Virus record (IMG/VR): IMGVR_UViG_3300029266_000657
Span: 1-41,467 of that record
Origin: a virus
Length of the DNA stretch: 41,467 nucleotides
Direction: 5' to 3' (one strand)
The notes under the pieces: model-generated
What the model was told of the DNA's origin: nothing
What the model saw: the letters and a program-made list of their open reading frames with translations, nothing else
Database searches by the model: none
Made by a program: the position numbers and the translations under genes
Shown: positions 14,113 to 24,848 of the stretch, one piece after another
Layout: every line of letters begins with the position of its first letter
How positions within the stretch are numbered: position 1 is the first letter of the stretch

Positions 14113-15291
14113 CTACCCTACTTTTGTTAGTTTGTGAGTTTGTGTTGCCATCCAGCTATCGCCTTTTATACCAGCCATTTTAGATGCTTTCTTTATTGCT
14201 TCAACAGTTGATCTAGCTTTTACTGTATATACCTTCTTTGGATCAAGTTCTACACCGCCTAATGTCATTGCAGCGAATTGCATTTTCCAAGTAGCAAATC
14301 CTTCTTTTATTGTTTCTTTCTTAGAAGTATTAAAGTTTACTGCCATACCATGACCTGATATAACATTGCTTAATCCTTCGAATGCTTCGTTAACTCTACC
14401 TTGAAAAGAAGGTTTTTTACCTTCATACATAAGATCAAACATTAGATCTTGTATATTAGAATCTGTAGAATTACCACGATTCTTTTCAATAGCTCTTCTA
14501 GCTTTTAGAGCATTTTTTGCCAATACTATATGATATCCTTTCTTAGGTCCACCCATCTTCTTACTATATTGAGCACCTTGCATTTTAGAGCCAACAGGTC
14601 TAGCGTTACCTCTAGGATCAACTACAACATATGATTCATGTATACCTTCATCTTTACTTTTATGCATTTTGTCAACTTTGTTAAAAAAAGCTTTTTTATC
14701 TTCATCATCAAGTTCTGCTGGAGAATCTATACCTTCATCGTCCATAGCATCTTTGAATTTTTCTTTATAGTCAGAATCTTCGTTTTTAACAGCTTTAGAT
14801 ACTGCAGCTCTTTTCTTAGCTAAGTACTTGTCACTTCCATCTTCGTCGCCATCATTATCAATATCACCGTCTTCTTTACCTACAGCATCCATTGCTTCTT
14901 CAAGGTCATTGATTTCGTAGTATTTACCAAGCTTACCACCTATATCTTCAAATACAGACTCTAGTCTTTGTTGTAATGTAGATATCTCTTTGAATGTTCC
15001 TTCGAATACCTTTACAGAATCAGAAATAGATTTTGTATCTCTTTTTACAGATACGGCATCGAACCAATCAGCAGTTTCTTCTATAGCCATCTTGCTAGCA
15101 TTTTCAGCCATCATCTTGATATTTTCTATCAATTCAGTTATTTCGTTTGTTTTATATATCTTCTGGCCAAGTTCATTAAATCTTTTAACAGCCTCCAAAG
15201 TTTCTGTCTTTTCTGATTCGGACATTCTTTTTTCTGAAGATTCATTTAGATAGTTATTAGATCTCCAATCTCTGATGTTGAATTTACTCAT
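14113..15291 (-). CDS. Internal prohead/core protein with EF-hand-like calcium loop
   Basis: A 392-residue acidic protein of unrecognised family. The N-terminus FNIRDWRSNNYLNE followed by S looks like a gp21-type leader with Leu-Asn-Glu at the cut. Residues ~141-154 (DGDIDNDGDEDGSD) have the alternating Asp/Asn pattern of an EF-hand or dockerin-type calcium loop, followed by a basic KYLAKKRAAVSKAVK helix. A segment near residue 200 (DDEDKKAFFNKVDKMHKSKD) and several later Glu sites (MYEGKK, IKEGFA) may also be cut. The gene begins right after protease gp21 with AAGGAG, and the next gene follows at 5 bases, so it belongs to the head-core operon. Role inferred: scaffold or packaged internal protein. 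Confidence 0.78.
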   Translation of the reverse strand: MSKFNIRDWRSNNYLNESSEKRMSESEKTETLEAVKRFNELGQKIYKTNEITELIENIKMMAENASKMAIEETADWFDAVSVKRDTKSISDSVKVFEGTFKEISTLQQRLESVFEDIGGKLGKYYEINDLEEAMDAVGKEDGDIDNDGDEDGSDKYLAKKRAAVSKAVKNEDSDYKEKFKDAMDDEGIDSPAELDDEDKKAFFNKVDKMHKSKDEGIHESYVVVDPRGNARPVGSKMQGAQYSKKMGGPKKGYHIVLAKNALKARRAIEKNRGNSTDSNIQDLMFDLMYEGKKPSFQGRVNEAFEGLSNVISGHGMAVNFNTSKKETIKEGFATWKMQFAAMTLGGVELDPKKVYTVKARSTVEAIKKASKMAGIKGDSWMATQTHKLTKVG

Positions 15292-15927
15292 TTATTTACT
15301 CCTTGTTGGTAATGCGCATTTGCAAGTTAAATCACAAAGCATTTCGTTTATTATATTATTTACCTTATCGTATTTATTTACATTATAAATATCATTTACT
15401 GATTCCTTAATAGGTGCCATGAATGCTCCATGTGTAGATGGGTTTGATACAAAATCCCAACATACCAATTCAAAATCAGGTTGTACTTCCAGTGTTCCGT
15501 CTTCAGAAAGCTGCTTAACAGATCCTAAACCTCTTGATGATATACCTAGCTTTACACCAGCTTTCAACAATTCTTTAAGTATGTTACCTGATGGTGTACC
15601 TAGAACTTCAACTTTTCCTAACAAGTCATCACCTTTCCACCATATCTTTTTTATATTGTGAGATACGTTTTGTAAGTTTACTACTGAAGATTCAGGGTGA
15701 TCTAATTCGCCAAGTGCTCTATTCTCTGCAATTTGTTCGTTAGCATATTTAGCAGCTTCACGCATCAAAGTTTCTTTAGGATATATTCTTCCGTTTTGAT
15801 TTTTAGCGCCAGCTCTTTGAAGTACGCCACTTACTATTACCCGGCCGTTGTTTTGTTCTTCTGACTCTCTGATCATCTGTGGTGATATTTCAAACGATGT
15901 ATAATCTATTAGTACTTCCTTTGACAT
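15292..15927 (-). CDS. 21: Prohead core protease gp21
   Basis: A 211-residue serine protease of the T4 gp21 (peptidase S80) type; T4 gp21 is 212 residues. Key pieces are the entry RIYPKETLMREAAKYANEQI, the catalytic histidine in GELDHPESS, and the catalytic serine in GISSRGLGSV, followed by a strand with FELVCWDFVSNPSTHGAFM. It cuts core proteins and the capsid N-terminus after Glu in hydrophobic-x-Glu sites during head maturation. Its ATG overlaps the stop of the upstream gene (TAATG) with AGGAG in front, so translation is coupled. Several neighbours carry candidate cut sites. Confidence 0.94.
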   Translation of the reverse strand: MSKEVLIDYTSFEISPQMIRESEEQNNGRVIVSGVLQRAGAKNQNGRIYPKETLMREAAKYANEQIAENRALGELDHPESSVVNLQNVSHNIKKIWWKGDDLLGKVEVLGTPSGNILKELLKAGVKLGISSRGLGSVKQLSEDGTLEVQPDFELVCWDFVSNPSTHGAFMAPIKESVNDIYNVNKYDKVNNIINEMLCDLTCKCALPTRSK

Positions 15928-16568
15928 TAGAATCTCCTCAGTTTATTTGACAGTCTTTCCATTTTTTCAGATATCTTTGAAAGATTTTCTCTGGTAGATT
16001 TCCAATATTTATTTTCGTCTATTCCAGCTTCTGTCTTAAGTTTTATATTTTGGTTTATTATTCTTTCGATTTTAAACAGCTTGCTATTAACTTCCTTTAT
16101 AGCTCTGTTAACTTTCTGCTTAGATGATGATGTTTCGTCTTTTTTATATTCATTATAATTAACTTCATTTACCAAAGTAAGCTTAGCCATTTTCATGAAT
16201 GTAGATTCTTTTACTTGAGTATATCCCATCAACCCTACAGTTGCATCTTTTTTCTTCTTCTTTCCAAATGCGTATGGTGTATCATAAGCTTCACCGCCAC
16301 CAGTTACGTTTGCTTCATCTATTTCTTCATTTTCAGAATACAGATCTCTGCCTTTATGTTTACCTTTGTATGTAATTCTATCTGCTTCTATTGGATGGAA
16401 GTTTCCAGGATTTGACTTAAGTTTTATATAAGCTACTCTGCCTGAGACTTTGTTTACTACGCCGTATTCTCCGTCATCCATTTTAATGATGTCACCTTTC
16501 TTGGCTTTTGCTTCATTTAATTTCTGTTGTTCTTCAAACATTTTATCGAGTTTTTTATTTAACGACAT
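15927..16568 (-). CDS. Small prohead core protein with an SH3-like N-terminal half
   Basis: A 213-residue basic protein. Residues 1-20 form a helix ending in QQKLNE then AKAKK, a good gp21-type cut site. Residues ~24-72 (KKGDIIKMDDGEYGVVNKVS; VAYIKLKSNPGNFHPIEADR) look like a small five-strand SH3/KOW-type barrel. After an acidic EEIDEAN comes the Gly-rich TGGGEAYDTPYAFGKKKKKD, and the C-terminal ~70 residues are coiled-coil-like. It overlaps the gene upstream by 14 bases and protease gp21 by one base. Position corresponds to the small core proteins (gp67/gp68 region) of T4, but no homology to those is claimed. Confidence 0.75.
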   Translation of the reverse strand: MSLNKKLDKMFEEQQKLNEAKAKKGDIIKMDDGEYGVVNKVSGRVAYIKLKSNPGNFHPIEADRITYKGKHKGRDLYSENEEIDEANVTGGGEAYDTPYAFGKKKKKDATVGLMGYTQVKESTFMKMAKLTLVNEVNYNEYKKDETSSSKQKVNRAIKEVNSKLFKIERIINQNIKLKTEAGIDENKYWKSTRENLSKISEKMERLSNKLRRF

Positions 16569-21882: not shown

Positions 21883-24150
21883 TTAGAAGTACATCATACC
21901 TGTGATTTGGTTTACAGGTGCAAAGGCTCCAGTTAATTTGTATGTCTTTCCTTTGTATACAAATACTAAACCTTCACTTGGTACTATAGAATCCATGCCA
22001 CCTATTGAATTTAATTTATTTAATTGCTGTTTTAGTCTATTTATTTTTTTAATGTCACCACCTTTTTTTACCACTGATATAGCCTGCTTTATCTGCTTTC
22101 TTATATTTTGAACAGCCTTATCTGGATTAGCTGCCAAGAAACCTTCTGCGTTTTTAAGCACTTCAACACCTAGTTCGAAAAATAGTTTTTCAAAAGGAAG
22201 CATGTTTTTCTTTACTTGATCTGCATGTTTTTGCTTGTCTACTTCTATTGCTTTTGCAAGTAGCTTCTCATCTGATATTGTTTTCTTGTTTAATCTAAAT
22301 GATTTATCAGAAAAAGCCCATCGTGTTACAAGGCCTGTTTTTATTTTGTTATCTATGCCTTTAAAGTTTTTATCTACATATTCACCCCACCAAGCTTGAT
22401 GATATTCAGCAAATGTACTTGAGTCAGACATTCTAAACTTAGACATAAGCTTGTTAAGCTTTCCTAAGAAATAAGGTTTTCTAGCAGAATAATCTTGATG
22501 AGGATTGACTTTTAAGAACTGTGGGCCTATTATTGTAAAGTTCTTTTGAACAGACTGGTTGACTTGACTTATCATACCTGAAAGTATTCTAGCTCCATCA
22601 GCAACTGATCCAATTGGCATTCCATCTTTATACTTAAGTACGTTGTGAAATTGTAGATGAGGTGCGTCATAATTAATTACGTTTGATGATGCAGGGTACA
22701 TTATCTCCATGTTAATCCAATTATTTCCATCATCAAATATCTTCTTTCTCTGCTTATCGTTTAAAGATTTTATTGCTTTTGTAAGATCGTTCATAGCATA
22801 GTTAAATGCTTTTTCTATATTTCCTCTACCTGAAAACTTCTTAGCTATTGAGTTCGAATCTACACCCCCTCTTTTAATATCACCTGCGTTCCTTGCGGCA
22901 AGAAGTTTTTTGTTCCAAGTTATAAATAGATTTTGTCCATCTGTTTTTTCTGTCGCAGCTGTTTCAAGATCTAGCTTTCCCTGAAGTGAGATGTCTATTA
23001 TCTGTCTGAAGTCTCCAAACGTTAAACCTCTATCGTCAAATGGATGAGACATGTGACCGTAAGCTCCACCTTCTAAAATCAAACCTTCTGAAAGCTTGCC
23101 GGGTTTAAGCGGCTTCATTGGCTCGTCTTTATTATTAGTTTTAGATATTTCTGCACCTAGATAGCTTACAAATTCGTATCCAATTCTTGTTGCAATATAC
23201 TTTGACCATTTAGCCCAACGATCATATGCAACTCTTCCTTTCTTATCTGCCAACTGGTTTGTACCTGAATTTGCTGCACCAGGCATCCCTACAGGAAAAT
23301 AAGACGTTGCACCTGTAGGTCCTTTTGGAAATTTAGTACCGTGTACAAAAAATTCTTCTTCTCCTGATATATAGTTTAATACTTCCATACCTAAAGATTC
23401 TGCAGAATTCTTTCCAAATTTCTTCCAAGACTTTTGATTTCCCCAATAACCTCTAGGGCCATCGTCGACCGTATCACCTCCTGCACTAAGTAAATTTTCA
23501 CTTAAAAACTTTGGTATATCGAATTGTGTACAGAATTCTTCTACTGATTCGTTAAGCTTTTCTAGCTTCTTTGTTATTAAATCGTAATTTTTTGTATTAC
23601 CAAATATACCTTTGAATATTTTGGTTTTTTCTTTCTTATCTATATCTGTATCACCTAAAGCTTTTCGTATTGCAGTACCACTCATCTCTCCATATCCTGG
23701 TACTTTCATACTTATATGTGGTGCAACTAGTATATAAGCTCCTTCTCTATATCCTATTTCTGCCTTACCTTTCCATTCGCTAAAAAACTTACCGCTTGTA
23801 AGCCTGCCTGCATCTTTTGCTCCAAATATAAACACAGCAGCTGTTGTTTCTGGATCGTATTTCTTCAGTATTTCTTCAGCCTTATAGGGACTCTTTACTT
23901 GAACTACCTTAGATATACCATAAGAATTTATGATTTTTTTCTTTTCATTAAAACTAAAAGGTGATTTTGGTAGTTGCACTTTTCCACTTGTTGCAACATA
24001 ACAATCTTTAAATTTAGACTTTAACCACTTGAATGTCTTTGCGTGGTGAGCTCCCATAGGTTGGAAGCGTCCGGGGTATATTGCAACTATATTCTCTATA
24101 TTAGAATCTTCACTAATTATATTTTCTGCTAGCCAGTTAGATAAACTCAT
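21883..24150 (-). CDS. Fusion of a cytidylyltransferase-like domain and a ligase-like nucleotidyltransferase
   Basis: A 755-residue two-enzyme protein. Residues ~20-185 are a cytidylyltransferase/NMNAT-type Rossmann domain: GRFQPMGAHHAKTF replaces the usual GxFxPxHxGH, and MSGTAIRKAL matches the ISxTxxR motif. Residues ~350-755 carry the motif order of covalent nucleotidyltransferases (RNA/DNA ligases): motif I EKTDGQ with the candidate AMP-accepting Lys402, an NMEIMYP segment with Glu482, motif IV PSEGLVF near 724-730 and motif V KTYKLTG near 735-741. Short Leu-x-Glu sites flank the domains: WLAE (6-9), FLSE (215-218), KLSE then GLILE (352-360). These resemble gp21 cut sites, so the polypeptide may be packaged and split. 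The start overlaps the kinase stop (TAATG). Substrates are unknown; end repair of RNA or DNA, or a NAD-linked reaction, are possibilities. Confidence 0.78.
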   Translation of the reverse strand: MSLSNWLAENIISEDSNIENIVAIYPGRFQPMGAHHAKTFKWLKSKFKDCYVATSGKVQLPKSPFSFNEKKKIINSYGISKVVQVKSPYKAEEILKKYDPETTAAVFIFGAKDAGRLTSGKFFSEWKGKAEIGYREGAYILVAPHISMKVPGYGEMSGTAIRKALGDTDIDKKEKTKIFKGIFGNTKNYDLITKKLEKLNESVEEFCTQFDIPKFLSENLLSAGGDTVDDGPRGYWGNQKSWKKFGKNSAESLGMEVLNYISGEEEFFVHGTKFPKGPTGATSYFPVGMPGAANSGTNQLADKKGRVAYDRWAKWSKYIATRIGYEFVSYLGAEISKTNNKDEPMKPLKPGKLSEGLILEGGAYGHMSHPFDDRGLTFGDFRQIIDISLQGKLDLETAATEKTDGQNLFITWNKKLLAARNAGDIKRGGVDSNSIAKKFSGRGNIEKAFNYAMNDLTKAIKSLNDKQRKKIFDDGNNWINMEIMYPASSNVINYDAPHLQFHNVLKYKDGMPIGSVADGARILSGMISQVNQSVQKNFTIIGPQFLKVNPHQDYSARKPYFLGKLNKLMSKFRMSDSSTFAEYHQAWWGEYVDKNFKGIDNKIKTGLVTRWAFSDKSFRLNKKTISDEKLLAKAIEVDKQKHADQVKKNMLPFEKLFFELGVEVLKNAEGFLAANPDKAVQNIRKQIKQAISVVKKGGDIKKINRLKQQLNKLNSIGGMDSIVPSEGLVFVYKGKTYKLTGAFAPVNQITGMMYF

Positions 24151-24848
24151 TATTTTCTCAACTCCAATTCTTTTTTAATCCATTTCTTTGCAACATGATT
24201 TTGTATAGGACGTGTTATAAATTCTCTTGCTTTTGATTTTACAATACCTGCGAAGTCTTTCATTTCTGAATTATCTACTACTAACATATTACTAGAACCA
24301 AATAATCCTTGAAATTTACCTAGATTATTTTGAACAGCTTGCCAAGATTTTTTTACTAGTTCACTTGGCAATTTTCTATCTCGCATTTGGTTTCTTTCTA
24401 ATGCAATTTCTAGGTCAGTGTTTACAAAAATCATAAAAGAATCGTAACCTACATCCTGTAATTGTTTTTTCTGTTTTGCTATAACTGAATAATTCTTTCC
24501 TGTTCCATCTATAAGCAAACCTAGTCTTCCATTTATATAATTTTTAAGAGCAGCGTCTCTGACTTTTTTACTTTTATTTCTTAAAGTCATAGCTTGTTCA
24601 AACTCAGCAGGGTTAAGCTTTGCTATATCTTGACTTAAACCTTTCATTTGCAAATAAGTTTCGAAGTACTTGTCACTGTTAACAGATTTTAATCCCTGAG
24701 CAGAAACGAATGGCATTTTTTCTGGCATTCCAAAAAGTGAAGATGCAGCATATGATTTTCCACTACCAGGGCCTCCAGCTGTAAACACTGCCTTGAATAT
24801 ACCTGGATCGTATACACCTTCGTTTAATATGTCTTTTAGTTTTAACAT
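24150..24848 (-). CDS. P-loop kinase (zeta-toxin / polynucleotide-kinase-like)
   Basis: The frame opens with TTG at 24851, but the ATG at 24848 is the likelier start, giving 232 residues. After a short leader LKLKDILNE then GVYDPG comes Walker A AGGPGSGKSYAASSL (residues ~24-38). A central segment GLLIDGTGKNYSVIAKQKKQ and a lid-like LEIALERNQMRDRKLP follow, as in zeta-toxin and polynucleotide-kinase-type phosphotransferases. The leader ends in Ile-Leu-Asn-Glu/Gly, an excellent match to the hydrophobic-x-Glu/small-residue cut site of T4-type prohead protease. It overlaps the ligase-fusion gene by one base, indicating coupled translation and shared function. The phosphate acceptor cannot be told from sequence. 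Confidence 0.8.
   Translation of the reverse strand: MLKLKDILNEGVYDPGIFKAVFTAGGPGSGKSYAASSLFGMPEKMPFVSAQGLKSVNSDKYFETYLQMKGLSQDIAKLNPAEFEQAMTLRNKSKKVRDAALKNYINGRLGLLIDGTGKNYSVIAKQKKQLQDVGYDSFMIFVNTDLEIALERNQMRDRKLPSELVKKSWQAVQNNLGKFQGLFGSSNMLVVDNSEMKDFAGIVKSKAREFITRPIQNHVAKKWIKKELELRK

Follow-up and report, generated by a model that had tools for sequence, protein, structure and literature searches.

Two enzyme genes within a T4-like head cluster

The window (the whole stretch of DNA that we analysed, 41,467 nucleotides of the IMG/VR virus record IMGVR_UViG_3300029266_000657) contains a T4-like head cluster, in which portal, S77 prohead protease, scaffold and capsid genes were recognized from the sequence and from profile matches. 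Two minus-strand genes, encoding a kinase and a fusion of enzyme-like domains, are flanked by structural genes on one side and by the large terminase on the other; the fusion start and the kinase stop meet in an ATGA-type junction, overlapping by one codon-frame step (Table 1). What are these enzymes doing among head genes? An earlier note had proposed that both are packaged in the head, with the fusion split into separate enzymes on maturation, because both carry sites of the kind cut by the T4 prohead protease gp21, in which a hydrophobic residue, any residue and Glu are followed by a small residue (hereafter HxE/small).

Table 1. Positions in the window of the kinase and fusion genes, their putative leaders and cut sites, and the prohead protease with neighboring core-region proteins.
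Feature	Position	Strand	Remarks
P-loop kinase gene, 232 aa + stop	24150..24848	-	ATG at 24848; predicted Zeta toxin / polynucleotide-kinase-like fold
Kinase leader MLKLKDILNE, 10 aa, putative cut after E10	24819..24848	-	
Fusion gene, 755 aa: adenylyltransferase-like domain + middle region + KxDG ligase-like domain	21883..24150	-	
Fusion leader MSLSNWLAENIISE, 14 aa, putative cut after E14 (next residue D)	24109..24150	-	
Nucleotidyltransferase domain (GRFQPxHxxH), NMNAT/PPAT-like, ~residues 15-204	23539..24108	-	
E218, putative cut site FLSE/N, boundary of first enzyme domain and middle region	23497..23499	-	
Fusion middle region, residues 219-355, ending at E355 (KLSE/G)	23086..23496	-	
E360, putative cut site LILE/GG, immediately N-terminal of ligase-like domain	23071..23073	-	
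Ligase-like domain with KTDG motif, putative covalent nucleotidyltransferase, residues 361-755	21886..23070	-	
Prohead protease, gp21/S77 type	15292..15927	-	PF03420 110 bits
Core-region protein, leader-like start ...NNYLNE/S	14113..15291	-	sequence
Core-region protein, leader-like start ...QKLNE/A	15927..16568	-	sequence

The kinase is predicted, from its sequence and its model, to be a Zeta toxin/polynucleotide-kinase-like P-loop kinase: it matches Pfam PF06414 at 38.2 bits (cut-off 22.3), and a Foldseek search with the model returned zeta toxin (E 6.5e-7) and the Clostridium thermocellum Pnkp kinase (E 1.6e-6). The first domain of the fusion is likewise predicted to belong to the NMNAT/PPAT nucleotidyltransferase superfamily, on the basis of a match to PF01467 (21.4 bits, cut-off 21) that recurs in 39 of 42 family members and a Foldseek match of the model to NadM (2r5w, E 6.3e-4). 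Pfam, PHROGs and PDB profile searches gave no match for the ligase-like domain at the other end. By its motifs, it is a candidate member of the covalent nucleotidyltransferase (ligase/capping enzyme) superfamily: the KxDG of motif I (here KTDG), the EG of motif IV and the lysine of motif V are all present, and inspection of the alignment shows that E401, K402, D404, G405, E726, G727 and K738 are invariant.

Family searches gave no match for the middle region between these domains. In related phages, it is also fused to a second copy of the kinase (BLASTP matches L107, L110-L115, L118 and L122), and an LxE[GA] motif is kept ahead of the kinase domain in these copies, an arrangement compatible with a cut site and also with a structural role. 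The three activities also occur apart: in the isolated Pelagibacter phage HTVC008M (L127), the genes for AGE60461-AGE60464 include a KWDG-motif protein, a kinase and another nucleotidyltransferase as adjacent separate genes, a trio that by inspection corresponds to that of the window. One ligase-like gene, at L074:10001-12464, has an intein-like insert between the K and T of its KTDG motif, running from CIYPDAILQ (after TEK) to YYANGILVHN (before TDGQNLF); the reading frame changes inside the insert, which also contains stops.

The bare cut motif is close to background

Every motif listed in the earlier note was found where it had been placed: MLKLKDILNE/G at the start of the kinase, and WLAE9/N, FLSE218/N, KLSE355/G and LILE360/G in the fusion. 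Taken alone, however, the motif is too common to be informative. HxE[GASN] was present in 9.5-11.5% of internal 20-residue segments, a chance-level density at which roughly 10% of any stretch of that length carries one, and the N-terminal segment was enriched for it in one of five genomes (p=7e-4; not significant in the other four). Conserved HxE/small columns accounted for 3/23 conserved Glu columns in the fusion, 2/19 in the terminase and 5/25 in the portal, and thus also occur within folded control proteins. With the motif near background and the fusion count not above that of the control proteins, we dropped motif counts as evidence and sought evidence that does not depend on the motif.

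The kinase leader resembles a T4 capsid-targeting sequence

According to a review of work on T4 (PMC9026906), the 10 N-terminal residues are enough for packaging, with positions 4 and 7 important for targeting and positions 8 and 10 for processing. The kinase leader is hydrophobic at 4, 7 and 8, ends in Glu at 10, and has the same length and the identical register as the MKTYQEFIAE of T4 IPII/IPIII, which we read from the T4 record. E10 and G11 are kept without exception in 36 kinase homologues with identities as low as 45%, whereas residues 5 and 9 are free to vary. In the kinase model, pLDDT is below 50 for residues 1-13, and the first strand begins at residue 19. The earlier note's view of this leader as one of capsid-targeting type is well supported by its T4 length and register, its invariant Glu-Gly, the low-confidence tail and the presence of the leader on many unrelated proteins, as described below. 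Judged by sequence, the leader is very probably a signal of this type.

The prohead protease of the window itself has conserved HxE/S sites close to both of its ends, at E21 (21/21) and E175 (20/21). On the L222 contig (G013:C1:71514-72392), the match to the S77 prohead protease is split in two although it lies in a single 367-residue frame, which suggests that the protease carries an insertion.

In Agrobacterium phage Atu_ph07 (L130, AUZ94865-AUZ94869), adjacent proteins begin with M[KR]WEQL[TN]E or MKWNDLNE, and at least AUZ94865-AUZ94869 have YRGM-type segments in common. AUZ94865, a homologue of the kinase with the leader MKWNDLNE/A, has its YRGM-type segment joined to the kinase via EVTE/GVNDKHIFKA, and it lies within a cluster rich in virion proteins if the CDS are numbered in record order.

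One leader occurs on many unrelated viral proteins

In four large contigs that are related to one another, unrelated genes begin with near-identical leaders; HAD-like and NUDIX-like proteins are among the products. From these leaders, we built a DNA-level pattern encoding MIKLx[DN]ILxE and ran it over the whole viral collection. The pattern gave at least 151 matches on at least 119 contigs, and among the matches listed 147/151 lay at the starts of open reading frames; a single control pattern, with its codons rearranged, matched 20 times across the entire collection, once at such a start. With a slightly looser peptide pattern applied to part of the listed loci, 137 leader genes on 74 contigs fell into 67 BLASTP clusters, some of which may be distantly homologous to one another. 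Zeta-toxin-like kinases, NUDIX proteins, an exonuclease and ligase-like proteins are among the leader-bearing clusters. A search of the open-access literature found no description of this leader.

These results bear on whether the motifs are a coincidence, that is, a low-information motif found where it was sought. Although the background frequency of the motif and the poor conservation of one fusion site (E9, below) fit such a reading, what many unrelated proteins have in common is the whole leader and not the motif, as seen against a scrambled control and in an independent collection. We regard coincidence as very improbable overall, and for the kinase leader the observations disfavour it.

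Could the shared peptide instead be another kind of signal, such as a membrane or replication-compartment signal, an assembly tag or a translation-start element? The ties of MIKLxDILxE to head packaging are two, its resemblance to the T4 sequence and the company of an S77 protease, which leaves some room for this. The leader codons vary synonymously, however, so selection acts on the peptide, which argues against an RNA element; and the peptide agrees with the T4 sequence in its length, its hydrophobic residues at 4, 7 and 8 and its terminal Glu (PMC9026906). The leaders also co-occur with the protease: of 24 leader contigs, mostly fragments, 14 gave an S77 protease, among them all five longer than 130 kb, versus 1 of 14 control contigs, a comparison that is only indicative because the control contigs are mostly shorter. 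We consider a signal for something other than head packaging improbable.

Conserved glutamates and, in related fusions, leader copies lie near domain boundaries

To return to the fusion, we aligned 41 orthologues and took as conserved any column with Glu in at least 70% of them. Among 25 such columns, 19 lack HxE/small context in every sequence. The other six are unusual in their location: each is at the N-terminus, in the linker or where the first enzyme domain ends. The Glu residues E14, E218 and E360 are each present in 40/41 fusions, and E201 (KLNE), a conserved site that the earlier note did not list, in 39/41. The E218 column stands out from a variable neighborhood, with an entropy of 0.17 against a flank mean of 2.38. 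E355 is present in most short-linker fusions, while long-linker fusions have a leader copy instead. Among the internal sites first proposed, E218 and E360 are supported, and E355 in part.

The N-terminal site had been placed after E9, in SNWLAE/N. We ruled out E9, which is kept as Glu in 20/41 orthologues, and E14 takes its place. The leader ending at E14 is very probably, from its sequence, of capsid-targeting type, although at 14 residues it fits the T4-type leader less well than that of the kinase does, with Ala at the position corresponding to 4.

Two observations point to E360 as a place where the fusion may be split. L182, a homologue in which the ligase-like domain stands on its own, reads MIKLNNILNEVIQE/GGAGGHMAHPFD, so that its leader ends at the point equivalent to E360/G361. 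In addition, 17 of the 41 fusions repeat their own N-terminal leader in the linker, just N-terminal of GGAYGHM (0/500 shuffles each); in one example, the copy reads SLGQWLANQILLVE/GG and the N-terminal leader MSLGNWLADQIIS. These do not represent 17 independent events, because the sequences are related, and the same test found no internal leader copy in the fusion of the window. The proposed splitting is thereby supported at the E360 point, by the L182 leader and the leader copies of related linkers, and we regard internal cutting as plausible from the sequences. The fusion model adds little here. It is poor (pLDDT 65, pTM 0.38), with low confidence in the middle region, pLDDT below 50 for residues 1-5 and 7-15 and all putative cut sites in low-confidence parts, which is therefore weak evidence for disorder or exposed linkers.

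The linker of another related fusion (L045, with L059 as a close relative) contains an extra small domain (VGDTVLMGKFKNK...) that resembles HTVC008M AGE60462 and is followed by VTE/GLLTE/GG.

The same data can be read without internal cutting: the leaders would be capsid-targeting signals and be removed, but the fusion would stay one bifunctional virion protein, its linker Glu residues being relics of gene fusion or conserved for other reasons. The conserved HxE/small columns inside uncut folded proteins fit this, as does the restriction of the linker copy to a part of the family that does not include the fusion of the window. Moreover, conservation extends over G361-G362 and the GHMxHPFD that follows, so that E360 could be part of the ligase-like domain. 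Set against this are the near-invariance of E218 amid variable neighbors, the standalone homologue in which a leader is followed by E/GG, and the 17 fusions in which a fresh leader copy at the boundary would make an odd relic. We therefore hold an uncut fusion to be unlikely, and prefer cutting at E218 and E360.

Enzymes detected in cyanophage virions carry T4-type leaders

The virion proteome of cyanophage S-CREM2 includes four non-structural, non-lytic enzymes: a SAM hydrolase, an APH-like kinase, a cytidylyltransferase and a Cas9-like nuclease (PMC10665884). All four have leaders of T4 type. S-CREM2 gp6, gp14 and gp154 begin MKDFDSFLEE, VKRFDAFLTE and MKNFSSFLTE (the last followed by /A), and gp12, the Cas9-like nuclease annotated as a virion protein, has a displaced one, LRFASFMAE/A, at residues 17-25. 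Genome-wide, 5/8 S-CREM2 proteins matching a leader-register pattern were detected in virions versus 47/211 others (p=0.02), a modest association, as the three patterns tried gave p=0.020, 0.0087 and 0.126. By inspection, a narrower pattern matches detected proteins only; because it was chosen post hoc, we leave it out of account.

Two enzymes detected in virions belong to the nucleotidyltransferase superfamily, as the first domain of the fusion is predicted to do: S-CREM2 gp154 (PMC10665884) and the NMNAT gp281 of S-SCSM1 (PMC9602691), each found in virions by mass spectrometry. The latter begins MKSFLQFLKE/A. In S-SCSM1 as a whole, where few proteins match, 1/4 leader proteins was detected (p=0.52; p=0.81 and 0.31 for the other two patterns), so that the S-CREM2 association did not recur at significance with any pattern. 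The authors of both studies note that such enzymes could be co-purified, as contaminants in the S-CREM2 case (PMC10665884; PMC9602691). A BLAST comparison of the nucleotidyltransferase of the fusion with the virion-detected cyanophage NMNATs showed no similarity, and these proteins hence serve as analogues only. T4-type leaders on enzymes detected in virions speak against the shared peptide being a signal unrelated to packaging. As analogues, these enzymes lend indirect support to head packaging of the kinase and the fusion, which we consider likely.

A proposed model for packaging and processing of the two enzymes

The computations show the leaders and how well they are conserved, their spread over unrelated proteins, their agreement with the T4 register and the boundary leader copies in related fusions; from these, we infer packaging, cutting, ejection and enzyme roles as follows. 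The N-terminal leader of the kinase and of the fusion would steer each protein to the core of the prohead. The S77 (gp21-type) protease that the phage itself encodes would then remove the leader after Glu, at E10 in the kinase and E14 in the fusion, and would also cut the fusion at E218 and E360, and near E355 in short-linker forms, freeing two enzymes, one adenylyltransferase-like and one ligase-like, and the piece between them. The released products may enter the host with the DNA, a step that we add by analogy with T4. We consider this whole course, from capsid-targeting leaders through cleavage to entry of the pieces into the host, probable. Perhaps the enzymes act in the first minutes of infection in nucleic-acid end repair, which a kinase together with a ligase-like enzyme recalls, or in NAD-related chemistry, given the NMNAT-like chemistry of the first domain.

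A broader proposal, to which we give a little less than an even chance, is that a large group of environmental T4-like phages use one transferable tag, MIKLxDILxE, on dozens of different head-packed enzymes, and that some of this cargo is a polyprotein, an enzyme fusion with tags or cut sites at its inner boundary, split by the prohead protease at head maturation and delivered as a nucleic-acid- or nucleotide-processing set. If true, a 10-residue pattern would predict virion cargo straight from sequence, even in never-cultured phages, and kinases, ligase-like enzymes, NUDIX and HAD-like proteins and exonucleases would become candidates for delivery ahead of phage gene expression. It would also be a case from phages in which a precursor of several enzymes is cut apart within the head by a maturation protease.

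Comparison with known systems

The giant phages phiKZ and SPN3US, which belong to another phage group, also have a Glu-specific prohead protease that strips propeptides from packaged proteins (PMC9026906), but these are multi-site propeptides and not short shared leaders with a copy at an enzyme boundary. S-SCSM1 gp281 and S-CREM2 gp154 combine a nucleotidyltransferase-superfamily enzyme with a T4-type leader; unlike the fusion, they have no ligase-like partner, and BLASTP finds no similarity between them and its nucleotidyltransferase domain. T4 Alt, an ADP-ribosyltransferase that is packaged, processed by the prohead protease gp21 and ejected (PMC9026906), is a precedent for an enzyme as head cargo, although the enzymes of the window have other folds and Alt is not two enzymes cut apart.

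For the leader itself, the parallel is the T4 capsid-targeting sequence of IPII and IPIII. Like it, MIKLx[DN]ILxE has 10 residues, starts with Met, ends in Glu at 10, and has hydrophobic or aromatic residues at 4, 7 and 8 and an acidic residue or Asn at 6; in both cases, one leader sits on different cargo in a genome that encodes a gp21-type protease. The leader described here differs in its sequence, in a cargo that appears far more varied, in that its packaging and cleavage are predicted, and in the residue after Glu, which in the wider MIKLx[DN]ILxE set is often I or V. The best reading of the kinase and fusion tags is as variants of T4 capsid targeting, new as variants and extending to a polyprotein-like fusion.
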